From: Eucommia ulmoides
Lineage: Eukaryota > Streptophyta > Magnoliopsida > Garryales > Eucommiaceae
DNA length: 64,000 nt
Direction: 5' to 3'
Assembly: GCA_016647705.1 (NCBI GenBank)
Contig: CM028326.1
Span: forward strand, 25,807,901-25,871,900
The position numbers were made by a program, and so were the translations under genes. Positions within the stretch are counted from its first letter, which is position 1. Each line of letters opens with the position of its first letter. Positions 5,276 through 52,021 of this stretch are shown here, one piece after another. A model generated the notes under the pieces. The model worked only from the letters and a program-made list of their open reading frames with translations, made no database searches and was not told the DNA's origin.

Positions 5276-5831
5276 TACTCAACATCCAAGATTTATAATG
5301 ATATTGATATAATGACAAGAATACTATCAAAAATACATCTTATTAATACTTACATTGAAACATTTTACAGATATAAGGATTAAATGTAATATTACAAGAT
5401 TGAGTATAAGGCTTACATCTGATAAGTCCCTCGGGCCAGAAGATGATGTAAGTAACCACCACGAGTTAGGCGTTGTTCAGTGCGTGCTGTGATAGACACA
5501 ATTTCATCTCCCAACAGACAGCTTAAACCCACAAATGCAACGAAAACTAAAGACTGGACCAACATTGGTACAAATATACGGCTAAGTACCTAGGTCGAGG
5601 GACCTTGGGAATAGTTTACGAGCAGTGCTCGGAAGAGTATAGTGCTCTAGGCGATTCTTATATCCTTTTGCGTGATGATGGATTTTGATTTCAAGATGAG
5701 ACTTGCTCAAGACACCTTTAAGGGAATGTTGTCCTATGACTTATTGGGTGTTACTCGTGCTCAGCTAGCCAAGGGCACAACTTTTGGGATCTACACCATT
5801 GAAACAATATCTAGTCCTTGATGGGCCACCG
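5276..5831. other. unassigned low-copy DNA with a coding-like stretch
   Basis: No gene is identified. From about 5670 a plus-strand frame stays mostly open up to 5826, where a solo LTR interrupts it. The same kind of reading resumes beyond the LTR at 7451. I do not recognise the protein family. Confidence 0.4.
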
Positions 5832-17984: not shown

Positions 17985-18054
17985 AATGTTACATGTAACA
18001 TTTAGTACTATATCATGTTACATATAACATCAATGTTACATGTAACATTAAAAC
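17985..18054. repeat. left remnant of a palindromic minisatellite (TGTTACATGTAACA type)
   Basis: It repeats ATGTTACAT/ATGTAACAT palindromes and ends at the Tat insertion point. The array continues on the other side of the element at 29819. The last five bases, AAAAC (18050-18054), are one copy of the Tat target duplication. Confidence 0.8.
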
Positions 18055-18828
18055 TGATGAAGGTATTTTTGGGCACTTTTGAGTCAGCACTTGGGACTCG
18101 GCCACGTGTCAACCTTCGCAATGGCATGGACGAATTCCAGAATTCACAACGCCACACTGGAGCATACATCAAATACGGCTCCTCCCAGGAATCTCATTTG
18201 CACCCAGGGAGGAGCGAGGAGCCCCGCAAGGACGTGCCACTTTAAGCTCTGCGCCGTTCCATCGGCGATCAGTTTTAGGGACTCAGCCGTTCACCTCGAC
18301 CGACACCCTGTTCTTCTCCAAGATTCCACGAATATCCGCTCTCCTCCACCTGCTCACTGCCGCAGGCCTAACAAAGGCCCGCGGGCTTCGCCAAATGGGC
18401 CCAAAAGCCCAAGCCCAACGATTATCTCCTAAACGCCCTAGATTATCGGCTAAACACTAGGTTTCGACTAATTAATCGTGTAATCATCTCCAACGCCTAT
18501 ATATATCGGGGGCTATGTAAGCCCGAGTTACGCTTTAATGACTTACATTACGTGCGAGTTCATTTGTTTCCTTGCTATATTCTGTACCTTTTCTCTCTAA
18601 GCACTGATTACCACGCCGGAGGGGCTTCACCGGGATAAACTCCGGTCTGAGCCTTCTGCAGGTACACTCCCTAAGGAGCAGGACTCTGGACACAGCAGGT
18701 CAGTCCTCCCAGGACCCAGCACAACTCGCTCGAGGACTTTTCAATCGACGACTCCACCTCAGCAAGAGGACCCACCTATCATCCGATTGGACCATACTCG
18801 AGGTGTGTACCAGTTTTATGCACCAACA
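18055..18828 (+). repeat. 5' LTR of the Tat element
   Basis: It begins TGATGAAGG and ends CACCAACA. The TATATATCGGGGG stretch near 18500 is TATA-like. It is 774 bp long, about 23 bp shorter than the 3' LTR because of small indels. Confidence 0.93.
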
Positions 18829-18848: not shown

Positions 18849-18950
18849 ACCGAGCAAAAAGCCTTCCCTTGATCACTACTCTCTGCTCAGCTAAGCTTGA
18901 GTGATCACAAGGTCCAGTTAAATAGATACAAAACTGAAGAACGAAAAGAC

Positions 18951-20177
18951 ATGTCAAAAAATCCAAGCGCATACCCGCCAGCTCCCACCAACAAGGATAA
19001 CTGCCCCCTCTATGGTCAGGCAAAACCATCCACTCTACCACCTAGAACTGCGGGACAAACCTCAGGAGTTGTGGACGCATCTCAGTTTGATCTTCTTGAA
19101 CGCCAAATGCAAAAGTTCAAGTCAAGTATACAACTCCTCCTCACGCGCTTGCTACCACCCCCTGTTCAGGGTGGACTAGCCCTCCAGCCAACAACGCTTG
19201 AGGAGCCGCTCCGAAATCGCGATGTTTTTATGGACACTCCGAATGGGCAGCAGCCCGAGGGCCGCCATCTACCTCGCAACCCTGAGTTTGCGGGACAAGA
19301 GAGGGCCCCCCCTGTAAGGCCGAGATCTCCACCTCCTCTGCCACACAAATTTATGCCAAGGGATATATCGGTGTCCCTTAATGGTCGTGCTATTCATCGG
19401 CCTGCCAGGTCCGATCATAGAGGTCGACGTAATCGTGAGGTTGATTATTACTTACTTCTCTCCCATCACCTTAATGCCCGGGCTGCGGACAGTCGGATCC
19501 AGGGAGAGCCCCGAGCAGGGGAGATTGTGGAGCGTCGTCTGGCCAACGTGGAAGCCCTTCTCCAAGAGGGACAAGGGGGCCGGGTTGGACCGGGTGTTAT
19601 TCTGGAGGTGAATTCTCCTTTTGTGGATGAGGTTCTAGAGGAAGTAGCACCGAGACACTTCACCCAACCCCAGATGAGTCCGTATGATGGGACTTCAGAT
19701 CCCGTTGACCACCTTTCTATGTTCAAGTCACATATAAACATGCAGGTAGCCTCTGTAGCTTTGAGGTGCAGAGCCTTTCCCATCACTCTTATAGGTGCTG
19801 CAAGATCGTGGTTCCAAGGTTTGAGGCCAGTGTCCATCTCCACCTTCAGAGAACTCGAGCAATTGTTCCTGGCTCGTTTCAGTCGTTCCCGGCGTAGGCC
19901 AAGGACTGTGGCTCATGTCCTCACTCTTCAACAAGAGCCCACTGAATCTTTGGGTGATTACGTTGAGCGTTTCAACCGAGAAGCAAATTTATGCGATGAC
20001 CTCCCTGATGTCGTTGCGCTAAATGCCTTTGTTGACGGGCTCCGACATCAAAGATTATCCTACGATCTCTGCTTTAACCCTGCTCTCACACTCGATCAAG
20101 CTCTAGACCGTGGAACTAGATTCCATGGTACTGTCCTTCGTGCTGCCACCAGGAGAGAGCGGGAAGGGGTAAACTAG
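18951..20177 (+). pseudogene. Tat element gag (N-terminal and capsid part)
   Basis: The ATG at 18951 opens a 408-codon segment. The first half is proline/arginine-rich. The retrotransposon capsid fold follows from about 19660, marked by the MFKSHINMQ, GAARSWFQGL and LEQLFLARF motifs and the FNREA...FVDGLR segment. It ends at a TAG at 20175. The C-terminal gag part continues about 230 bases later (20406 on), so gag is interrupted. The product would form the particle shell. Weak similarity to host DNA outside elements makes any host function unlikely. Confidence 0.85.
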
Positions 20178-20405
20178 CCGAGGGAACCAAGGAATAAAGA
20201 TTCAAATCAAACCCAAGGCTTAAGAAGGTTACAGGCAGCAGGAAGACTAGGACCCCTACCTGGGGAGAGGAGACCACTTCTTCCCCCAGGGCGTCGCTAG
20301 CAAGGGTTCACCTCGCTTACGGCCTCGGTAGCCGTCATCTTCGAGGAGAATTCAGGGAGGGATTTCTTCCCTCCTCCACCACCCCCGAGAGAGAAGCCGC
20401 TTGGA

Positions 20406-21278
20406 ATGGCAACAACCAAGTACTGCGCATTTCACCGGGACCGAGGGCACTCTACTCAGGACTACTTCCAGCTAAAACAGGAAATTGAATCCCTCATCCG
20501 AAGAGGTTATCTGGGGAACTACGTTCGGAGAGGGAATCAGGAGCGCTCCACCGAGGAAGAACCGCCGGTAGAGCCTCAGGCTCAAAGGAAACGGGAGAAT
20601 CGCATATGTCCACAGCCCCAGAGGGCAGGGGATGGGGATGATCAGCAACACGTGGATGGCGAGATCAACTTCATTCACGGCAGACTTAGCCTCGGGAGAG
20701 GAACATCATCTTCTAAAAAGAGGCATGAGCGAAAGGCCAAACGAAAAGCAGATGAAGACATATATGAAGTAAGCACCATAGATGCTGCCACCCACAATGT
20801 TATCTCCTTCAGCAAGGCCGACCTCCGGGGGGTACATACGCCCCACGAGGACACCCTAGTCATCACTGTCGTGGTCAATTATTTCATAATGACGTGTATT
20901 TTGGTTGACAGAGGGAGTTTAGCTGATATCGCCTTTAAATGGGCCTTTGACAAGTTGGGGATAGAGGTCGGTACCCTGCAACCCATGAGGTCCCCCCTAG
21001 TTGGTTTTGGGGGGGAAGTGGTCAATTCTCTCGGATGGGTCTCCTTGCCTGTCACGATTGGGATAAGTCTAAAGTCTGTGACGAAATGGGCCAAGTTCTT
21101 AATTGTGGATAGACCGTCACCCTATAATGCTATCATGGGGAGGCCGACCGTCTCAGCATTCAAGGCTGTTTGCTCTCCGTATCATCAAGTCATGAAATTT
21201 CCCACCAATCAGAAGATTGGAGAGGTTAGAGGTGACCAGGAGACATCACGCGCCCGTGCCTGGAGGGCACTGGAATAA
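20406..21278 (+). pseudogene. Tat gag C-terminus and aspartic protease, inactivated
   Basis: The segment starts with a knuckle-like KYCAFHRDRGHSTQDY, where the position usually holding Cys is Tyr. It continues through a charged linker to the aspartic protease (about 20850-21200). The protease active site reads VDRGS rather than the usual D-T/S-G, and the later YNAIMGRPT motif is intact. The change at the catalytic triad would prevent Gag-Pol processing. The ORF ends with TAA at 21276, and RT follows 16 bases later. Confidence 0.85.
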
Positions 21279-21293
21279 AAGAAATAGCAACCA

Positions 21294-22318
21294 GTGGCGG
21301 GGCCTGACCCCCAAGGGTCTGAGCTGGATACTCCTAAGCTCATGACCCTAGATGCTGAAAAAGTCTTGGTGCCGATTGATGACCCCAGAGATAAGGAGCC
21401 AGGCCCCCGCCCACATGAAGACATGGTTGAAGTTTCGATTCATCCAACTCTTAAAGAGAGAACTGTCAGGATAGGAGCCAAGCTCACCCCAGGACTACGG
21501 GTTGAGCTCACAAAGCTACTACAAAAGAATGTGGATGTATTCGCTTGGTCCCATGATGAGCTCCCCGAAATTGATCCAAAAATGGCCATGCACAGGCTGT
21601 ACGCGAACCCACACCATCCTCCAGTCAGACAAAAGAGAATGAAGTTCCACCCTGAACGCCAGAAAATTATCGAAGAAGAAATGCAGAAATTGATCAAGTC
21701 TGGTGTCGTGGAGGAGGTGACATTTCCAGACTGGCTATCCAATGTTGTGCTCCCCCCTAAAGCTGGAGGCAAGTGGAGACTCTACATTGATTTTAAGGAC
21801 CTCAACAAGGCCTGCCCCAAAGACTTCTTTCCTCTGCCGAGGATTGATCTTATCATTGATGCCACTGCGGGTCACGAGCTCCTTAGCTTTCTGGACGCAT
21901 ATGCCGACTATAATCAGATCCCCCTGTTTCCCCCTGATAAGAGCAAAACGTCCTTCATTATGGACAGGGGGACATACTGTTACAAGGTGATGCCCTTCGG
22001 CTTGCGTAACACCAGGGCTACCTACCAAAGGTTGGTCAACAAGATGTTCAAAGAGGAGATTGGCAAGACCATGGAGGTTTACATTGATGATATGTTGGTA
22101 AAAAGCTTGCGAGCTCCCGATCACATGGCGCACCTCCAGTAATGTTTTGACACGCTGAGAACCCACCGGATGAAGCTCAACCCCACCAAGTGTATCTTTG
22201 GCGTCTCTGCAGGGAAGTTCCTTGGTTATATGGTCTCTCAGCGTGGAATTGATGCCAACCCTGACCAAATGACCGCTATACTCGGCATGTCTTCGCCCCT
22301 TCAAAGAAAGAGATCCAA
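21294..22318 (+). pseudogene. Tat reverse transcriptase, with stop and frameshift
   Basis: RT motifs appear in order: LPPKAGGKWRLYIDFKDLNK, LPRIDLIID, FLDAYADYNQIP, MPFGLRNTRATYQ, and the catalytic VYIDDMLVKS. A TAA at 22140-22142 interrupts the frame after AHLQ. The thumb part then continues in the same frame to about 22290, where a single frameshift occurs before the connection domain. An active RT would copy the element RNA into DNA; this copy cannot be translated whole. Confidence 0.9.
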
Positions 22319-23560
22319 ATGCTGACTGGCAGGCTTGCAGCCCTGAACCGTTTCATCTCTAAGTCTTCAGAGCAGTGTTTACCCTTTTTTAAGGTGCTTC
22401 GTGGGAACAAAGACTTTAACTGGACAAGTGAGTGTGAAGCTGCATTTTGTGATCTGAAACGTTACCTCTCCTCAACTCCCTTCCTCAGCACTCCCAATGT
22501 GGGGGAAGAGTTATTTTTATACATTTTTGCTTCCTCAACTGCGGTGAGCGCGGCCTTGGTGAGGGAGGAAAATGGTGTCCAAAACCCGGTGTACTACTCC
22601 AGCAGGGTCCTTCTTGATGCTGAGACCAGACACTCCAAATTTGAAAAGCTAGCCTATGCCTTGCTGATCGCCTCCAGAAAACTCCGGCAATATTTCCAGG
22701 CACACACCACTGTGGTTCTGACGGACCAACCCCTAAAGCAGATCCTGTATTCTCCTAACGTCTCAGGAAGGCTGATGAAGTACAGTTTTGAGCTAGGACA
22801 GTTCCATATTGAATATCGGCCGAGAACGGCCGTCAAAGGCCAAGTCCTCGCCGATTTCATCGCCGAGCTCACCTTCCCAGAAGAGCAGGATCTGGGAGTA
22901 AATCATCAAAGGCCTCCATCTTCGGGAGACCTGAGGACCTTCTCCAGCCCATGCGACTTTGACCCGATAACGTGGCAGCTCTTCACAGATGGATCATCTA
23001 ATGTAAGCGGCTGTGGGGCCGGAATGATTCTGGTAGCCCATGATAAAGAAGTTGTTGAATACGCTCTCCGACTCGGGTTCACGGCTACGAACAATGAAGC
23101 TGAGTACGAAGCTTTGCTCACTGGTCTCTGTTTGGCAAGGGAATTCAATGTGTAAACTCTCATGGTCTTTTGTGACTCGCAACTTGTGGTCAACCAGGTG
23201 AATGGTGGCTACATAGCAAAGGACCTGAGTATGTTGGCATACTTGGAAATGGTCAGAACACTTATGACAGATTTTGAAAAAATTCAAGTGTCTCAAATCC
23301 CGCGCGAAGAAAACAGGCACACTGACACCTTAGCGAATCTCGCCTCGACAGTCGAATGGACTCTGAAGAGGAGCATCCCTGTGGAGTACCTTGACACCCC
23401 AAGCATTGCAGCCTCAGATCCTGTGGCCACTATTGGTGAACTCACTGATCAGTCAACTTGGATGGACCCAATCAAGCAGTACCTAGAGCGAGGTACCCTC
23501 CCAGAAGATCGGACGGAGGCCAGAAGGGTACGCTACCGGGCATCAAGGTACACTCTCATT
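22319..23560 (+). pseudogene. Tat RNase H and second (archaeal-type) RNase H
   Basis: The connection and first RNase H domain run from LTGRLAALNRF to about 22870, and the TDQPLKQIL motif is clear. A second RNase H begins near 22975 with LFTDGSSN. It has NNEAEYEALLTGL and, after an in-frame TAA at 23153, CDSQLVVNQVNG and the final acidic REENRHTDTLANLAS. The dual arrangement is the signature of the Tat lineage. Only the stop breaks this segment. Confidence 0.88.
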
Positions 23561-24664
23561 GATGGAGTTCTTTATCGAAAGTCATTCTCAGGCCCCTATT
23601 CCAGATGTCTTCGTCCTGAAGAAGCCAAGTATGTCCTTAGCGAAACTCACGAAGGATTATGCGGCAACCACTCAGGGGATAGGTCCCTCGCTGGAAAACT
23701 ACTCCACCAAGGATATTTCTGGCCCAAAATGCATGAGAATGCCATGGAATTTGTTAAGAAATATGATAAGTGTTAGAGATTTGCCCCGCACCCTCACACT
23801 CCTCCCACCATGTTGGTTCCGATGACAAGCCCATGGCCCTCTGCTCAGTAGGGCATTGACCTCCTCGGGCCCTTCCCCCAAGGGACCGGGCAGAGGAAGT
23901 TCCTGATCGTTGCCATCGATTATTTCACAAAGTAGGTCGAGGCTGAGCCATTGGTGTGGATCACCAAGGAAAAAATTCATGACTTTGCGTGGAAGAGCAT
24001 AGTGTGCCGATTTGGGGTCCCAAGAGCGATTGTGTCCAACATTGGGACCCAGTTCGACAACTCCCTCTTCATCACCTTCTATGCCGAGCTAGGGATCAAG
24101 ACAAATTTTGCCTCCCCTGGCCACCCTCAATCGAATAGCCAAGTAAAGGTTACAAACAGGACCCTCTTACACGGGTTGAAAACAAGACTTGATAAATCAA
24201 AATGATGGTGGGTGGAAGACATCTACCCTGTCCTCTGGGCGTACCACACCACTCCAAGAACTCCAACGGGAGAAACACCTTTTGCGATGGCCTTCAGCTC
24301 CGAGGCCATCATCCTCACGGAAATGAGCGTACAAACTCTCCAAACTACCGAGGCCTTTGATCAAATCAAGAATAATGCGACGTTATCACTGAGCCTTGAC
24401 CTCCTTGAAGAGCGAAGGGAACAGGCCCAGATTCGGCAAGCTGCCTACCACCAAAGGGTAGCAAGATACTACAACCGGCGAGTCCGCCCTCACTCCTTTG
24501 ATATCGGTGACCTTGTTCTCAGAGAAGTTACTCTGGCTACCAAAGAACAAAGCGTCGGAAAGCTAACCCCTACTTGGGAAGGTCCATATAGAGTCACCGG
24601 GATTACGCGTCCAGGAACCTACGATCTCCAAATAGAGAACGGTATGCCACTCAGGCACCCGTAG
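23561..24664 (+). pseudogene. Tat integrase, several nonsense mutations
   Basis: The zinc-binding N-terminus (ETHEGLCGNHSG...KYDKC) is followed by the catalytic core with GIDLLGPFP, the conserved NIGTQFDN segment and the GHPQSNSQVKVTNR segment in place of the usual GQ-E. The C-terminal GDLVLREV...WEGPYRV domain ends at 24664. In-frame stops lie at 23774-23776, near 23848 and 23933, and at about 24203. The final conserved NADHLKRYF lies past the last stop. Integrase would insert the cDNA; this copy is dead. Confidence 0.88.
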
Positions 24665-25571: not shown

Positions 25572-27026
25572 TTAGTCATCCCCGCCCTCAAAGTGAGGAG
25601 TGTCCGAGAGGGGAGAAGAAACGTCAAGCTCACCCTCTTCAGTAGCCCCCTTAATAGCACCGTCCCCCTCAGCATCTTCCTGCCCAGTCCCTTCGTGCTC
25701 GGTATCGCCCTCTGGCTCAGAGAACTCCATCTCCACATGGACAGGAGAGAAGCCAGGGTGCAAGCGGTAGATGACCTTCATTGTGTGGCCTTATTTCCAG
25801 CCTCTAGGAAGTCGCTGGCCATATTCTCCTGAAGCTCTTTATACCCAGGGCCCTCCTTCCACTGTTCCACTGCCTCTGATTTGCCCTTCTCCCTGGCCTG
25901 GGCAGCAATGGCCTGAGATTTCTACTCTTGGTCTTTAGCGCGTCGCTTGTATAAGGCTAACTCAGGCTCGAGTTTATCAATCCGCGAGTTGAGGTTTTGC
26001 TTATCAGTCCAAAGTCCAAGATTCTCCGTCCGAAGGGCGGACAGATCAGTGCGAAGTTTGGCCTCCACCTCGTCACTTTTTTTTTTAGAGAGGTTCGTTG
26101 AGAATCCACCTCGGTGAGGAGTCCATTTTCGGAGAAGATCTGGTCTGCCAGCCAGTGATACCGAAGGGCAACCTGTCGAGATAAACAAATTGGGTAGATG
26201 AGAACATGTTCGAGAAATTTAAGATAATTTGTAAAGAATATAAGTGTTGAGAAAGACTGAAGCACTTACCCCCGTCAGGTCTCTGTAGACGTCTCCGACA
26301 AGTCGCTCAAGACTGGTACTGGCGATTTTTCTCATATCAGCCAGAGGGGTCACCCGGCCCGGAAACCCCGATGCGAGCGCTGGGTTATCTAACAGGCGAG
26401 TGTTGACCTCCACCCCAGTGTTCCCAACTCTGAAGAAATCAGGACGAGCCTCAAGAGGGATAGGAGCAGCTAGTGCTGGCTTTGAAAGACACCTACCCTG
26501 TTGTGTGCCTTGCTTGGTCGGCTCTCTGGCAGGGCGCTTACCCCTCTCCTGAGGAGTCACCCTGGTGTCTGGCCCTCGTGCTTGGGGGCAAGACTCTCCA
26601 GTCTTCGCCCTGGTGCGGGTAGGAGACTGAGAAAGTGGAGTACCACCCTTGGAGGATTGCCCCTCCTCAACACTGGGGCTCCCTGTGGCCCCAGCCTTTC
26701 TCTTGGCAGAAATCTTACTCAGCAAAGCAACGTTGTCCATACCTGCTAGGAAATCACAACTCAAAATATCGGACATTAGGTGTGAAAAATGAACGATCAG
26801 AAAAAATTCTTACTATTCTCAGGCCTCGACGGGAGCTCAGCAGAGGGTAGAGACGGATCTCGGTAGAAGTAGATATCGTATAGAGTCGAGCTCAGCAACT
26901 CATTTAATTGGTTGAAGGGTGTCCTCAGGATCCTCTCTCTCTCTGTGCAGCGATCTCGGGACGCAACTCTTGTGCCTTATGCAACTTTTTACTCGGTTTT
27001 TCGCGCTCTGTACACACACACAAAAA

Positions 27027-27079
<53 letters not shown>

Positions 27080-28041
27080 ACACGACAGGAACCCAATAAG
27101 CTCAAAGTGCCTGGAGCACCGTTCCATCAGCCATCCCCGAGATTTCCTTACCGGTTTTTCCCCAGTGTCGCTGAATGGGATTCGGGTGGTCCTGCTCGTT
27201 AGGGCCCAACTCCCAGCCGTCGCCACCAAGGTAAAAGTACCTCGGCTTCCACTTTTGGCGCGCGGGCTTCCATGTCAGTTAGGAATGCCGACTTAGAGGA
27301 TACGTAACATAACCCAGCACACGATGGCAGAGACTTGGCGGATAAAAGAGCACGAAAAAGTTCCAGGCTCGATTCAATCCCTTCCGCCTTGAAGATAATG
27401 TATGCCGCTATCACTATCTTTGTACTAATCGGAGCCAGCTGTGAGGGGCACAGACCAAGCTCCACGCAGACCGCTCGGACCCAGGGGTGAATGGGAAAGC
27501 GAAGTCCGACGGTCAGCTAGTGGAGGAACACGGTAATAAAGCCCGAGGGTAGCTGGTATGCCCTTTGGTCAGCATAAGGCATCATCGTCACGACAGACTC
27601 CGAGAAGGTGTATAAGCTACGAGCTTTCACTAGGTCTTTCTCGGTTACGTTAGACTGGAGATCCCAAAGGGGACTTCGAACGGGAATAACGGAGTACAAA
27701 ATCTAGGGTCCTGGACCGCAGAAGGGCCACGGTACCAGGGGAATGGCTTGGAGGAACACTAACTGTGTTACGCGATCCTCCTCCTCTGGAATGGCAACAA
27801 AAATGGGCTCCCATGAGGAGCCTTCTCCTCCGCGCTCGTCGGGGAAACCGATCACGGACACTAGGTCAGCCCGGGAAGGTTTTCCCCTGGGCGATGGTGT
27901 CCGAACCACCAGGAAGAAAGAAGACGAGTTCAAGGCGCCCCTGCGCCGTCCTGCATCCTCAGTAGAGGGGGGTTCGCTCCGACGTGCTGGAGCCTGAACT
28001 GCTCCTTGAGCTACTCTCAGAAGAGAAAGAATATTCCGCAC
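25572..28041 (-). pseudogene. antisense spliced gene of the Tat element (plant putative gypsy-type transposon protein), decayed
   Basis: The gene lies on the strand opposite to gag-pol. Four exons can be delimited: 28041-27152, 26923-26814, 26742-26270 and 26172-25572. Donors are GTAAGG, GTAAGA and GTAAGT, and the acceptors end CTGAG, CTAGCAG and CGACAG. Exon 1 encodes the PIHPWVRAVCVELGLCPSQL...SSLELFRALL stretch typical of the plant putative gypsy-type transposon domain. Exon 3 is proline/arginine-rich, and exon 4 is a predicted coiled coil (LRTDLSALRTENLGL) with an acidic tail. In-frame stops lie near 27703 and 27517, a frameshift near 27235, and an A-run frameshift near 26090. The second Tat copy (46266-49112) shares the splice sites and reading frame. 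Its function is not known; similar antisense genes are known in related elements such as Grande. Confidence 0.8.
27031..27079. repeat. (TG)n(TA)n microsatellite
   Basis: About nineteen TG units are followed by TA units. They lie inside intron 1 of the antisense gene. Confidence 0.97.
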
Positions 28042-28191
28042 TAGAAATGTTAGAAAACATTTCTAAAATAAAAATAGTACCGTATAAAGAAGCTTCTTAG
28101 GAAACGACGAGAGAACGCGAATGCGTTTAAATGAGACGTCTACTCTCTATTTATAAAAGAAAAAAAAATCAGCCCTAGATTGACGGGCGCA

Positions 28192-28429: not shown

Positions 28430-28910
28430 TGTCTTGAAAATCGAAAAAATTCAAGGCCGCCCTACCGTGCTACTTGACCCCTGACCCCAGCCGTATGGGA
28501 GCGTATTTCAAATTAGCTCCTCTATAAAAGTTCAACTCTTGAAAAATCGTCGCCGTGAAATCGAAAAAATTCGGGGTCGCCCTGCTGTGCTACCTGACCC
28601 CGGACCTCAGCGGTATGGGAATGTATTTCAAATTAGCTCCTCTATAAAAGTTCAACTCTTGAAAAATCATCGCCGTGAAATCGAAAAAATCTGGGGTCGC
28701 CCTGCCGTGCTACCTGACCCCGGACCTCAGCGATATGGGAACTTATTTCAAATTAGCTCATCTAAAAAATTTCAACTCTTGAAAAGTTGTCGTCCTGAAA
28801 ATCGAAGACATTCAGGTACGCCCTACCGTGCTATCTGACCCCGGACCCCGACCATGTGGAGGCCTATTTCGAATAAGCTCCTCAAGAAAAAACTAACTCT
28901 TGAAAAAATG
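28430..28910 (+). repeat. 120-bp tandem repeat in the Tat 3' region
   Basis: Four units start at about 28441, 28561, 28681 and 28802, each opening TCGAAAAAATTC. Each unit contains CTACCTGACCCCGGACC and ATTTCAAATTAGCTCCTC. The first three have an exact 120-base period. They lie just upstream of the polypurine tract, and the open frame across them reflects the period being a multiple of three. Confidence 0.92.
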
Positions 28911-29007: not shown

Positions 29008-29021
29008 GCTAGGGGGGCAAC
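29008..29021 (+). other. polypurine tract of the Tat element
   Basis: The run AGGGGGGCAAC abuts the 3' LTR start (TAATGAAGG, an eroded TGATGAAGG). Confidence 0.75.
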
Positions 29022-29818
29022 TAATGAAGGTATTTTTGGGCACCTTTGAGTCAGCACTTTAGACTCGGCCACATGTCAACCCTCGCAATGACAAGGACGA
29101 ATTCCAGAATCCACAATACCACGCTGGAGCATACACCGACTACGGCTCCTCCCTGGAATCTCATTTGCACCTAGGGAGAAACGAGGAGCCCCGCAAGGAC
29201 ATGCCGCTTTAAGCTCTACGTCGTTCCATCGATGATCAGTTTTAGGAACTCAGCCGTTCACCTCGACCGGCTTCCCTTTTCACCTTGTTTCTTCTCCAGG
29301 ACTCCACGGATCTCCGCTCTCCTCCACCTGCTCACTACCGCAAGCCTAACAAAGGCCCGCAGGCTTCGCCAAATGGGCCCAAAAGCCCAAGCCCAACGAT
29401 TATCTCCTAAACGCCCTGGATTATCGGCTAAATACCAGGTTTCGACTAATTAATCATGTTTAGACCCGACTAATCATCTCCAACGCCTATATATATCGGG
29501 GGCTATGTAAACCCGAGGTACGCTTTAATGACTTACATTACGTGCGAGTCCTTTTGTTTCCTTGCTATATTTTGTACCTTTTCTCTCTGAGCACTGATTA
29601 CCACGCCGGAGGGGCTTCACCGGGATAAACCCCGGTCTGAGCCTTCTGCAGATACACTCCCTGAGAAGTAGGACTCTAGACACAGCAGGTCAGTCCTCCT
29701 AGGACCCAGCACAGCTCGCTCAAGGACTTTTCAATCGACGACTCCACCTCAACAAGAGGACCCACCTGTCATCTGATTGGACCATACTCGAGGTGTGTAC
29801 CAGTTTTATGCACCAACA
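29022..29818 (+). repeat. 3' LTR of the Tat element
   Basis: It is 797 bp long and aligned end to end with the 5' LTR. Differences include a first-dinucleotide change TG to TA and short insertions near 29280 and 29462. It ends CACCAACA before the second AAAAC target copy. Confidence 0.93.
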
Positions 29819-30180
29819 AAAACCAACCCAAAACCAAAACTCACTCAAAATGTTAGTAACTACACCATATTATATGTAACATTCATGTAATATCAATGTT
29901 ACATGTAATATTAAAACCAACCCAAAGCCAAAACTCACTCAAAAGGTTAATAACTACACCATATTACATGTAACATTAAAACCAACTCAAAACCAAAACT
30001 TACTCAAAATGTTAGTAATTACACCATGTTCCATTTAATATTCATGTAACACCAATGTTACATGTAACATTAAAACCAAACCAAACCAAAACCAAAATCA
30101 AAAGGTTAATAACTACACCATGTTACATGTAATATTCACGTAACATCAATGTTACGTCACATTACTGTATTTTCCATTTA
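29819..30180 (+). repeat. palindromic minisatellite array, right part
   Basis: Three to four imperfect units of roughly 95 bases combine AAAACCAACCCAAAACC, a TTAGTAACTACACCAT segment and TGTTACATGTAACAT palindromes. They continue the array interrupted at 18054. Confidence 0.85.
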
Positions 30181-46265: not shown

Positions 46266-46606
46266 CGGGGTGTGATAAGGCGTGGTCTGGGCTGAAGTGG
46301 GCTCTCCCTCTTGGGCCCCCTCCCCGGGTTGAACTCCCTACTGGAAGCTAGCATCCTCGACAACGTCCTTCGCCTGTCTCTCCTTCGCAACCTCCTCATC
46401 ACAACTCGGTCCATAACTGTAAGAAATACATAGTCAGACAAGTGAAAAAAGACAAATATCTAAAATAAACTGAGAAGAATTGAAAGGCTCACTATTCGTA
46501 AAAGACTTGTAAAAAACAGAAGTAGGTAAAGAAGGATTACTCCAGAAATATAAGTCGTACAGAGTCGACTTGATTAGCTCTTTGACGTGGGTAAAGTCCG
46601 TCTTCA
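46266..46606 (-). pseudogene. Tat antisense gene, exons 3 and 2 (second copy)
   Basis: Exon 3 begins at 46416 after the acceptor CTTACAG and reads MDRVVMRR, aligned with MDNVALLS of the first copy. Exon 2 (46606-46493) reads DFTHVKELIKSTLYDLYF and matches the corresponding frame of 26923-26814 (LLSSTLYDIYFYRDPSLP). Its donor is GTGAGC. The nested solo LTR begins two bases outside exon 2. Confidence 0.75.
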
Positions 46607-47089
46607 GTGTAAAGCCTAATTTTTGCGCATGTATATTTCTAATTGCATTTTAGAACATTTTGAAAAACAATGGGATTCATTATATTATTTAAATTTTACT
46701 TTAAAATTTTTAGAGATTATTGTGGTATTTAAAAGTTTGATTTTAAAAACTTTAGGGGCTAATATGTTAATTTTAATTTTGACTTTTTAAAAGTTTAGGG
46801 ATTATTAAGTTATTTAAAATATAATTTTAAAATTTTGGGATATAATTAATATTTTTTTATTCCAAGAAAAATAATTAATATAAATAAATAAATTAAAAAA
46901 ATAATAATAATAAAATAAATAAAAATATAATGTGGTGGAATTTGTTTCCTTCTCAAGGAAGGAAACAAATTCTTACCATATATATGGTTATATATGTGTG
47001 TGTCAATGACATGTGTCCGAAGCAAAAAAAAAAAAAAAGGCAATGGCAGTGAACAACTTACATATATATATGTATGTGTGTATGTATTA

Positions 47090-47090
<1 letters not shown>

Positions 47091-47127
<37 letters not shown>

Positions 47128-47132
47128 CACAC
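47091..47132. repeat. (TC)n(TA)n(CA)n microsatellite
   Basis: A compound dinucleotide run inside the solo LTR, close to a poly-A run at 47151-47173. Confidence 0.95.
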
Positions 47133-47910
47133 ACATACATTTCTACCGCGAAAAAAAAAAAAAAAAAAAAAAACTAAAGCAGAAAATTTTGGCTTCTTCA
47201 TTGCAAGTATTTCTTTTCATATATATATATATTGCTAGAATAAAATATATATCACGTTTAATTTATGAGACTATCTATACGAACATGTACACATGTATAT
47301 TTATATGTCAAAAATATATATATGTGGGTTCGAGAAATATAGTGAGTATAGATATATCTAATTTGTGAAAAATATGATTTAAAATAAAATTTGTAAATTT
47401 TATTAAAATGATAATTTTTAGTATTTCATTAACTAATAATATTTTTAATAGTCGATTAATATTATTCTATAGATTAAATTATTAATATGGAAAAAAATTA
47501 TAATCATTGTTATAATAATTTTTGTATAGTTAATATTTATTTAAGAAATTGAGCGTTTAATAATTTCGTATAATTAGAAAATTTGGGAATGGGAAAGTTT
47601 GCATTTTAAGGTCACGCATCGCATATTAGATTTATTTAAATAAATTCTCAATTTAGGTCACGTCGTTGTTAGGTTCACAGGCGACGTTGACCACATCAGC
47701 ATTTTGATAATAGTGTTTTCAGTAGCGCAAATATCGAGATGAATGTATTGTCTTCTATATAAATTATCAAATTAATTTTCGTACTAAACTATGAAAAATA
47801 AAAGATTTATTAAAATTCACGGTTTTATAACTTTAGACGGATAAAGTAAAAAGTTGATTGTGAAAAATAGTTTTTACTATTATACTTATATGCCATAGTA
47901 TGATCTCGAC

Positions 47911-48008
47911 AAGAGGGCATGTCCTGAGGGATATTATTGGTTCGAATAAGAGGGCATGTCCTGAGGGATATTATTGGTTCGAATAAGAGGGCATGTCCTG
48001 TAGGACGT
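47911..48008 (+). repeat. 37-bp tandem repeat, three units
   Basis: AAGAGGGCATGTCCTGAGGG plus a 17-base spacer starts at 47911, 47948 and 47985; the third unit diverges after CATGTCCTG. Confidence 0.93.
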
Positions 48009-48718
48009 TTGTGTTGTGACCTGACAGGAGGACAAGTCCTACAAGTGGTTGTTATTGTTATTGTGGTTGTTGTTGTGGCTATTGTTGTTGACTATTAATA
48101 TGGTGAAGTTGAATTTGATATTGATTGTTAATATAGTGGAGTTGAATATGTTGATGATACGGTGGTTTATACCATGTGTTGACTCCTACTATTGGTGATA
48201 TTGAATGGCCCTAACACTGATGATAATTTTAGATTGCATAGTTGTACATGTTACGGTACCATCTTAACTCTCGATTGTGATGTAAAACAATCCTATGGCT
48301 AGTAGAAAAATATGTGTGCAGTATTTTATTATATATCAAAATAATATGATTGGTTAATTTAAATGTATTTATTTTATTGTGATGATAGTTGCTGAGTTTT
48401 ATTTCGACTAGTGTACGGTTATCTTTATTTTATGTTTTGAAAAGTAGTGTATGATAATCATGCTTGATTCATAAATTATTTTTATATTATAAAGTTAGTA
48501 CACCGATAAAATATTGGTCTTAGGTATCTCAGCTAGAGACGGGTCCACTACTGACATTAAATAGAGTCAGATGGTGGTGTCATTTTTTTAGGATTGACAG
48601 GATAGGTGTGAACCGTAGAAGGTTCAGTTTTTATGTAGTTTTGTTATACATATTTAAGACACGTGTATTTATGAGTTTTGAGATTGGTAAATATATTTTT
48701 GGAAAAAAATCTACATCA

Positions 48719-48754
48719 GTATATATATACATACATACATATATATACATATAC

Positions 48755-48797
<43 letters not shown>

Positions 48798-48825
48798 CAT
48801 ATATATATATATATATATTATATAT
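48719..48825. repeat. (AT)n/(ACATAT)n microsatellite
   Basis: About 100 bases of alternating TA/CA repeats lie near the right end of the solo LTR. Open frames across it are meaningless. Confidence 0.96.
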
Positions 48826-49029
48826 AAGTCGACGTCACTCTCGACCTCAAGCGTTGGGGGCCCTGGGTGGAGTATGACATTCAGATCTCGATCTATATCC
48901 TTGGCAAGTTCCGAGTTGAGAATATTTTTCTTCTTCGATTTCTTTGGTTTTGTGAAGACATGAAAAAAGAAAACAAGTTAGGGAATTATATCGAGCAAAA
49001 AGTTTAACAACAAAGAGACAGGTACTTAC

Positions 49030-49112
49030 CCACTTTACCCCAATGTCTCTGGATGGGTAGTCCGTGTCCTCGCTTGAGCCGAACTCCCATCCGGTTCCCC
49101 CGATAGTATGGT
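49030..49112 (-). pseudogene. Tat antisense gene, 3' end of exon 1 (second copy)
   Basis: It reads GTGWEFGSSEDTDYPSRDIG up to the donor GTAAGTACC at 49029. This matches GDGWELGPNEQDHPNPIQRH before the donor GTAAGG at 27151 in the first copy. Confidence 0.75.
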
Positions 49113-52021
49113 CCAGTCATAATCCACGTAGAGCATCGTTGGTGATTTGGACCATACTATGGGTGTAAACCATTTTTCGACACCAACAAGCTCCATTAAT
49201 ATGCTTCCTAATATTAATTAATTACATTTATCGAACTGTGAAATTGATAATTTTGCTTACTCTTTATCAACTCCGAATTTCACTTCCTTTTTTGTCTTAA
49301 TCCATCATTCAACCACTTTAACTCATCAATTCCTTGATGGATTTTTAACTTCGGCTCATTGACTCAATCTTGGTTACGCTAGCGTGATAGGCTTAAATTC
49401 GCGCTTGAAATGGGGTAATTTCTGTAATTTTGAGAGTTTACGACTACCGCATAACGAGATGAGTGACAACGTGAGCGATATGATAAATGGTTTGTCGAGG
49501 TGTAGTAACCAGAGCCTGGAGGTGTTGGAGTGGTAGTTGAATTAATTGAGAGGACAGTTATCAGATTCGATAGAGGAGTTCTAGAAATTGAGAACACTTG
49601 GGATCGATTCCAATTTAATTTCGGGAATGATTCTAGATTCGATTGGGAATGTTTTGAGTTTGGAGAATTTGGATTTTGTAGACAACAAAATGAACGAGTC
49701 AATCCCTGAAACAATAGGGGATCTGAAAGCATTGAGGATGTTGAGGCAGGGTTTCATAACGCAAAATCATTTGAATAAACTCGTTAATTTAGAAGATTTC
49801 ACGATATCTTCTTTGCTAAATTCTTTCAACGTAGGCCAAAATTTGGTTCCTCCTTTTAGCCTCTTCAGCATTGAAATCACCAGTTGCCCATTGGGTCCAG
49901 ATTTTCCTCCATGGCTTACTACTCAAAATCAAATTTCGTTTATGATCCTGAGTAACGTTTCCATTTCGGGAATGATTCCTGATTGGCTATGGAAATTATC
50001 CTCACAGATGGAGTAGTTCAATCACTCGATGAATCAAATAACAGGAACACTCCCAAAATTGTTGGAGTTTTTCCCTGGAACATGGATCGATTTGAGTTTC
50101 AACGATTTAGAAGGCAAAATCCCAGGTTGGCCAAACTTGTAGTATCTCATTTTGGCGAACAACTCGTTTTCAAGAACAATTCCTATTATCATTTCCTTGA
50201 GATATCATGATCTTTCCTAGAATGCTCTCATCGATATGATCCCTTCCTCCATAGCCAAGATCAAAGACTTGTCAAGGCTCGATCTTTCGAACAATCGTTT
50301 ATTCGAAAACATCCATAATAAATGGTTTTACTCTCAAAACCTTCGAATGATAGATTTATCAGGGAACGATCTATCAGGCGAAATCCCTTCTTCATTATGT
50401 TCAATACCCAGCCTTTCTTATTTGAAATTGAGCCAGAACAATTTCTTAGGAACACTTTCTTCTTCCTTAAAAATCTGTACAGGATTATCTGCACTTGATC
50501 TTGGTGAGAACAGATTGGCAGGAACAATTCCTGTATGGGATGTGAAAAGTGTTCCCAAGTTGTATGAACTAAGAATGAGGGCCAATATGTTCATTAGAAC
50601 AATCCTGGAACAACTCTGTTATCTCCACAATCTTCATATTTTAGACTTCGCCTTCAATAATTTATCAGGAAGGATCCCAAAATGCATCTCAAACTTAATC
50701 GCTTTGAGTTCATTGATCACTTTCACTCCACAACAAGTTCCCTCTGAACATCACATATACACACCCAAGTTACAGTTAGTTGTGAAATGAACACAGTTGA
50801 CATACACATCCACGATCGGGCTCATAAATGCGATCGATTTTTCGAGGAATCGCCTATTTGGACAAATCCCGGATGAGATAATGAATTTATTGACATTGGG
50901 TACCTTAAATTTGTTGAGAAATTTTTTTGACAGGAAAAATTCCGGAGGGTATTAGAAGGTTGAAGACGCTGGAAATACTTCATCTTTCTTGTAATAATCT
51001 AATGGGTTCGATTCCTCAAACCATGTCTGATATAACCTCGTTAAGTCATTTGAATTTGTCTCACAACGACTTGTCTAGACCCACCCCTACGACAAATAAG
51101 TTCCAAACGTTTAATGATCCTTCGAGTTTTGAAGGCAATGATGGGCTCTATGTGCTGCCATTGTCAGTAAAGTGTTCTTCTTAGATTGATCGGGCGATGC
51201 AGAAAATAATGGAGAGGAAGAAGATGTTGTTGATGATGATGAGCATAAGAAGTTATGGGTTTATGTTAGTACGAGATTAGGGTTTATTGTAGGGTTTTGG
51301 GCTATATGTGGGAGTCTAGTGATTAAGAAGATATGGAGAGATGCTTATTACCATTTATCGGGACTTTTACAAAGTGAAAGATTGGATCTTTGTGGTTGTC
51401 TTGATTAATATTAGTCGTCTGAAAATGACGATGGATCGAATCAGGAGAAATCAAGGGTAATAACAGTGAAAGATTTTTTGTTTTTGTTTTTGTTTTTGCC
51501 ATAATCGTGGTATTAACAGTGTTGTGAATATGGTGTTTTAACACTTCATACCCCTAAAATTTTATAAAAATATCACTTTGGTCCCTGTATAGTTTTAATT
51601 TGAACACATAAGACCTTAAAAGTTTTTTTTTTTTTTTTTTAATTATCTCACTACAATCCTAGTTCTATATATGTACAAGGATAAAAGTGTATGTTCAAGT
51701 GTGAGTTGAATTTATTATTAAAATATTAAATTACGTTCAACATTATGATCAACTGAGTATTTAACAACATACGTCATAATTCAATCTAATAATGAAAAAA
51801 AATAGATATAAAAAAAATGAATCAAAATACAATTACAAAATTAGTAAAAACTGAATCAAAATACAATTATAAAATTTTAAGTCCGAAAATAAATGATTGG
51901 TTTGAATATAAATGGAAAGATAAGGTGAATCTTGAACAATGATTGAATAAATAAGGATAAAATTTTCATGACATGTTCATATTTCTATGCTATTATGCGA
52001 GTAATTTTACAATCTCTTTTA

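Follow-up and report, generated by a model that had tools for sequence, protein, structure and literature searches.

The stretch of DNA that we analysed (the window, 64,000 nt) is from the 947-Mb, 391-contig genome of Eucommia ulmoides. It contains a decayed retrotransposon of the Tat/Retand type, with gag-pol on the forward strand and, beyond the broken Ty3/gypsy gag-pol and between pol and the 3' LTR, a gene on the minus strand. This antisense gene spans 25572-28060 and has four exons separated by three GT-AG introns (Table 1). A sequence-only reading of the same DNA had claimed an intron-containing, four-exon antisense gene in a Tat element, which we confirm. Taken as a whole, its observation is partly confirmed and largely right, and its interpretation is supported.

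Table 1. Coordinates of the element, the antisense gene and related features in the window
Feature	Position	Strand	Basis
5' LTR (approximate)	18054..18828	+	90% self-match to 29019-29818
gag-pol region, several broken ORFs	18873..24664	+	Pfam
Exon 4, coiled-coil-like by look; stop codon 25574-25572; frame breaks in window copy	25572..26172	-	
Intron 3, phase 0	26173..26269	-	aligned copies, diverged loci
Exon 3, recurring MD..A motif at its start	26270..26742	-	aligned copies
Intron 2, phase 1	26743..26813	-	aligned copies, diverged loci
Exon 2 (LYD[IL]YF motif), out-of-frame length in window copy	26814..27007	-	aligned copies
Intron 1 (GT..AG), phase 1; its pyrimidine tract has expanded into microsatellites in the window family	27008..27151	-	aligned copies; homologous intron in diverged loci
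Exon 1 (coding part), TRP28 domain inside; stops and frame breaks in window copy	27152..28060	-	aligned copies, Pfam
Transposase_28 (TRP28, PF04195) domain	27334..27513	-	Pfam E 8.3e-5, 23.2 bits; curated cut-off 26.2
Likely start codon ATG	28058..28060	-	ATG in 29/40 close copies
Putative TATA box TATAAATA of antisense gene	28148..28155	-	7/8 window-family loci
120-bp tandem repeat, 3.9 copies, between antisense promoter region and 3' LTR	28438..28907	+	Tandem Repeats Finder
3' LTR (approximate)	29019..29818	+	self-match to 5' LTR, K2P
Diverged second-copy fragment: exon 1 end with donor 1, exon 2, intron 2, exon 3 start	46266..49112	-	

The element and its antisense gene

Four of the six sense ORFs that we compared to Pfam had matches: Retrotrans_gag (E = 1.9e-17), RVT_1 (3.2e-18), RT_RNaseH_2 (1.2e-19) and RVT_3 (2.6e-9), along with Integrase_H2C2 at 6.8e-5, which is under its own cut-off. 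The ORFs at 20301-21275 and 24206-24661 had no Pfam match, and neither a protease nor an integrase core was matched in the six ORFs (23777-24205 lies outside them). The matches thus cover gag, reverse transcriptase and two RNase H domains, and a dual RNase H is a hallmark of the Tat lineage. The region between pol and the 3' LTR is about 4.35 kb long (from the end of the last sense ORF at 24664 to about 29019), and it contains the antisense TRP28 coding region and tandem repeats, as is described for Retand elements. The element fits the Tat/Retand group because of its dual RNase H, the length of this region and the 120-bp tandem repeat. The two LTRs differ by a K2P distance of 0.113 (811 aligned sites, short flanks included), or some 4 to 8 million years at substitution rates that we take to be 1.3e-8 and 7e-9 per site per year. 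The insertion in the window is both old and broken. A 159-bp tandem repeat (29819-30136) begins immediately beyond the 3' LTR and a short related stretch lies just to the left of the 5' LTR, so a tandem array may have been the insertion target.

We placed all six splice sites of the antisense gene using an alignment of the window with 39 other copies. These close copies are from a genome search with exon 3, which gave at least 40 copies (40 scored among 163 candidates), window included, with 83-100% identity. On the minus strand, the donors are at 27151 (G/GTAAGG, where the slash marks the exon end), 26813 (A/GTAAGA) and 26269 (G/GTAAGT), and acceptors 2 and 3 are at 26744-26743 and 26174-26173; these five sites are present in the window as the sequence-only reading gave them. 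Its acceptor for intron 1 (26924, with exon 2 starting at 26923) had to be rejected because in the aligned copies the coding frame runs on upstream of 26923. Instead, we read the acceptor of intron 1 from the aligned copies as the AG at 27009-27008, which ends a pyrimidine tract, and this extends exon 2 to 27007-26814. The codon that is split across intron 1 takes one base from exon 1 and two from exon 2, as in the diverged loci described below. The start of the gene had been put at 28041, and the ATG at 28060 is a better choice. The intron-1 pyrimidine tract (27034-27070 in the window) has become a TG, TA, T or TTA microsatellite depending on the copy (compared with L009-L047 at the equivalent position), which suggests repeated slippage at this spot.

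The putative TATA box is 95 nt ahead of the ATG in the window and is found in all but one of the eight family loci that reach that far, window included; this is a raw count without a chance control. The same kind of raw count gives TATAAAT or TATAAAA 631-681 nt ahead of the start of TRP28 in 8 of the 11 diverged loci with enough upstream sequence.

The window copy of the gene is a pseudogene, as there are stops and frame breaks in exons 1 and 4 and exon 2 has an out-of-frame length. We searched Pfam with eight stop-free pieces of the antisense gene. The TRP28 match covers residues 2-61 of the piece at 27516-27202, which is cut by a stop, and its score is under the curated cut-off. A piece from exon 4 had only weak sub-cutoff matches, the best of which was TMF_DNA_bd (E = 0.0059), and the other six pieces had no Pfam match. 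A search against PDB sequences gave a best E of 0.39, and a single-sequence structure prediction for the TRP28 piece was uninformative (its mean pLDDT of 51.8 is too low for a fold search). A basic motif resembling a nuclear localization signal is weakly enriched in exon 3 (9 of 22 sequences; 12 hits versus 6.1 expected). A third TRP28-like fragment lies elsewhere in the window, at 5424-5546 on the minus strand (tblastn of the exon-1 piece, 48.8% identity over 41 amino acids, E = 2.5e-7).

Intron positions and reading frame are shared with diverged loci

The second copy at 46266-49112 had been said to preserve exon ends, and it does: donor 1, exon 2, donor 2 and acceptor 2 are all at matching places. 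Its exon 2 is 53.6% identical to that of the window over 28 amino acids (tblastn, E = 5.5e-8), and the N-terminal half of exon 2 was not found with confidence in this copy. The two copies were also said to agree in only one frame of exon 2 (STLYDIYF in the window and STLYDLYF in the fragment). Indeed, over 84 nt they have 10, 4 and 16 differences at codon positions 1, 2 and 3. Exon 2 is conserved as protein even though the window shows no long ORF for it. In the fragment, about 2.4 kb of AT-rich DNA separates donor 1 from exon 2, and beyond the fragment lies a coding sequence (ORF 50221-50790) that is LRR-like by look.

More diverged loci are available from the rest of the genome. A search with PF04195 gave at least 150 matches, all over the cut-off, among 2444 first-look candidates, and we analysed 50 of the 150 scored matches. 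Twenty-eight of these loci (group A) align to the TRP28 piece of the window with E < 1e-15, a threshold that was chosen after seeing the hits, and are 48-61% identical to it; the other 22, which are more distant, form group B. A match to exon 2 (43-57% identity) was found in 23 of the 28 group-A loci, and exon 2 was not recognisable in the other five (L062, L074, L082, L086 and L089). Across the 23 loci with matches to both exons, amino-acid identity is 43-61%, and the introns are at the same places.

Donor 1 (GTRAG or GTAAA within 2 nt of the predicted position) is present in 22 of these 23 loci, while among 320 offsets swept, any offset more than 8 nt away gave the motif in at most 3 of 23. 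For donor 2 the motif is near the predicted spot in 13 of 23 loci, versus 4 of 23 at the next-best offset. Ten loci have a hit to exon 3, and six of them have donor 3 where it was predicted (best elsewhere, 3 of 10). By manual reading, acceptor 1 is a YAG that follows a pyrimidine tract in 19 of 23 loci and is not intact in L058, L067, L081 and L093. A scripted choice also gave 19 of 23 (none in L058, L067, L071 or L097); it differs from the manual reading at L060, L081, L088 and L093. Acceptor 2 was located by rule in 20 of 23 loci. Because the loci and the copies are related, none of these counts are independent.

Codon phase gives evidence on both sides. In favour of a spliced gene, donor 1 is in phase 1 in 19 of 23 loci, while the lengths of intron 2 fall in all three classes modulo 3 (7/7/4, n = 18). 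Against it, the scripted acceptor 1 has phase 2 in 14 of 19 loci and phase 1 in the other 5, and intron-1 lengths are unevenly distributed modulo 3 (11/4/4). Furthermore, differences from the window are concentrated at third codon positions: positions 1, 2 and 3 have 325, 218 and 499 differences in exon 2 (22 loci, ungapped matches, 717 codons) and 708, 546 and 1311 in the TRP28 piece (27 loci, 1997 codons), although these comparisons all share the window sequence as reference and are not independent.

Of the 22 group-B loci, 7 have the donor motif at the offset that matches donor 1, but another offset gives it just as often (7 of 22), and acceptor-like sites were found in at most 8 of 22. Loci of this group (within L048-L097) have GTAAG-type donors about 312 and about 385 nt past the start of the domain, and possibly have another intron layout.

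Variation among close copies

The sequence-only reading had expected the splice dinucleotides to be more conserved than their flanks, and this was not borne out. Among scorable copies, the donor dinucleotides are intact in 37/37, 33/39 and 33/38 copies (donors 1 to 3) and the acceptor dinucleotides in 32/37, 31/39 and 34/38 (acceptors 1 to 3). The medians for other GT and AG dinucleotides are 0.86 (n = 109) and 0.89 (n = 179), so there is no extra conservation of splice dinucleotides in the close copies; only donor 1 is high.

In contrast to the splice dinucleotides, variants that are shared between copies are constrained in the coding frame. We compared synonymous (S) and nonsynonymous (N) variants with 1000 shuffles in which each base change was moved to random sites of equal methylation context and which ignore the relatedness of the copies; the frames were chosen by ORF continuity and homology and were set after a look at all three frames. 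Variants present in at least 3 of the 40 copies comprise 338 S and 486 N, versus 294.0 and 535.0 expected, which is an N/S of 0.79 of expected (P < 0.001; none of the 1000 shuffles reached the observed S). In the two shifted frames, N/S for these variants is 1.02 and 1.18 of expected, so the synonymous excess is found only in the predicted frame. Variants in at least 6 copies give a ratio of 0.76 (P = 0.005), those in exactly 2 copies 0.91 (P = 0.21), and singletons 0.98 (P = 0.44). Such a pattern would be expected if active elements are under purifying selection and inserted copies then decay neutrally.

Segment by segment, the constraint is seen in parts of the gene. The synonymous excess is significant in segments e1a (P = 0.020), e1bc (P = 0.030) and e4b (P = 0.015). 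It is weak, and not significant alone, in e2 (P = 0.080) and e3 (P = 0.165), and it is absent from e1d, e4a and e4c, with e1d reversed (13 versus 18.3 expected). Also, stop-creating variants are not depleted among the close copies, and within the close family, the tendency of exon lengths to stay in frame does not clearly exceed the length constancy of introns 2 and 3.

Precise loss of an intron was not seen in any of the 40 copies. One copy (L035) is without intron 1, but a larger deletion there also removes parts of exons 1 and 2. The absence of precise intron loss is expected if the element replicates via its sense RNA.

A probable spliced accessory gene and its alternatives

Antisense genes with TRP28 are already known, and the three-intron structure is what appears to be new. 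According to the portions of a survey of Retand elements that we draw on (Vicient 2025, PMC11963269), 97% of the Retand clusters have antisense ORFs with TRP28, the region between pol and the 3' LTR measures 2,933-6,566 bp, and about half of the elements have tandem repeats there; TRP28 is described as a predicted DNA-binding domain. Our element has the same arrangement of a PF04195 reading frame between pol and the 3' LTR with tandem repeats nearby. However, these portions describe ORFs, while in our element we see a single gene that has three conserved introns and a putative TATA box. Neither PMC11963269 nor PMC7264820 uses the word "intron" in its main text, although the latter calls for examining antisense and spliced transcripts. 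The claim that the intron structure is under-described agrees with our literature search, which found no description of introns in antisense TRP28 genes; Gomez-Orte 2013 and Steinbauerova 2011 were beyond its reach, and an earlier description there is possible.

Other elements offer partial parallels. Gene23 of Grande (Gomez-Orte 2013) is, according to papers that cite it (PMC7264820, PMC11963269), an antisense accessory gene that is transcribed from a promoter upstream of gene23 and has a nuclear product; we liken our gene to it by description only. Plant LTR elements are generally intron-free, with exceptions that include Ogre and EVADE, according to part of PMC12786077. Like our element, Ogre and EVADE have functional introns (PMC6317226, PMC12786077, each in part), but these are in the sense RNA (in Ogre, between the gag-protease and reverse transcriptase-integrase ORFs) rather than on the antisense strand. 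HBZ of HTLV-1, which PMC11963269 also mentions, is an antisense accessory gene with a nuclear regulatory product; we use it as a working analogy and claim no sequence relation.

We consider it very probable that the window contains an antisense accessory gene of a Tat/Retand-type Ty3/gypsy element (a TRP28 or aORF-3R gene) that has four exons, three spliceosomal introns and, between the gene and the 3' LTR, a TATA box of its own, and that is transcribed antisense and spliced. The sequence-only reading had argued for selection on a real spliced antisense protein; the intron positions common to diverged loci, the excess of third-position differences and the frame-specific synonymous excess all point the same way. 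Such a gene would be transcribed by RNA polymerase II from its own promoter, and the transcript would be spliced three times into an mRNA. The predicted product would have TRP28 at its N-terminus, be coiled-coil-like at its C-terminus and probably be nuclear. It might regulate the replication, expression or integration of the element itself, and we favour a nuclear regulator. The introns would persist because the genomic RNA that is reverse transcribed is the sense strand, in which antisense introns are not recognised.

An improbable alternative, and the layout that published surveys draw, is that the region holds several separate unspliced antisense ORFs, one for TRP28 and another downstream for a coiled coil, each translated from an RNA of its own if at all. 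The Retand survey (PMC11963269, in part) does set a minimum of 600 bp for the antisense ORFs that it tallies, and both TRP28 and Smc-type domains are on its list. But in the diverged loci, GT-AG boundaries, pyrimidine tracts and codon phases coincide with the ends and beginnings of conserved peptide blocks, and exon 2 is conserved at the protein level despite its lack of a long ORF in the window. Since intron positions are common to diverged copies, the antisense reading frames that look separate probably belong, as exons, to a single conserved gene.

It seems slightly less likely again that the antisense transcript works as an RNA (through double-stranded RNA, siRNA or interference with gag-pol) and that the protein is secondary, as part of PMC7264820 puts forward as an alternative. 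The frame-specific synonymous excess and the third-position divergence argue instead for selection on the protein, with which an additional RNA role may coexist. We doubt still more that the gene is recently captured host DNA, a passenger that serves no function in the element. Host genes typically have introns, and plant LTR elements are known to transduce genes (PMC7264820 and PMC11963269), but PF04195 matches over the cut-off are found at 150 places or more, the group-A loci share the intron layout despite their divergence, and TRP28 is nearly ubiquitous in the Retand clusters of the survey (PMC11963269, in part). An ancient capture is possible as the origin of the gene. Finally, it is scarcely credible that decaying antisense sequence came to resemble splice sites by chance. 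In favour of this reading, the close family shows no unusual conservation of splice dinucleotides, but the position-specific enrichment of donor 1 (22/23 versus 3/23) speaks strongly against this for that site.

The spliced gene that we favour might extend to Retand elements as a whole. We give about equal weight to the truth and the falsity of this broader proposal: the TRP28 ORF and the downstream antisense ORFs (Smc-like or other coiled-coil) would be exons of one ancient intron-containing gene that encodes a spliced nuclear regulator, and whose introns were kept through RNA-mediated replication only by their antisense position. If so, then the gene must have entered the element as DNA or as unspliced antisense sequence. 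In particular, the Smc-like antisense ORFs listed in the survey (PMC11963269, in part) may be later exons of the TRP28 gene. If the gene is spliced, then treating its parts as continuous ORFs, as the survey does, splits one gene, misses the small exon 2 and gives the parts separate functions.

A spliced gene would also be a natural case of introns surviving retrotransposition through antisense orientation. The exon map predicts strand-specific RNA junctions and a full-length protein. It also makes the question of origin testable, by way of a host or viral gene that has the same intron positions and phases.
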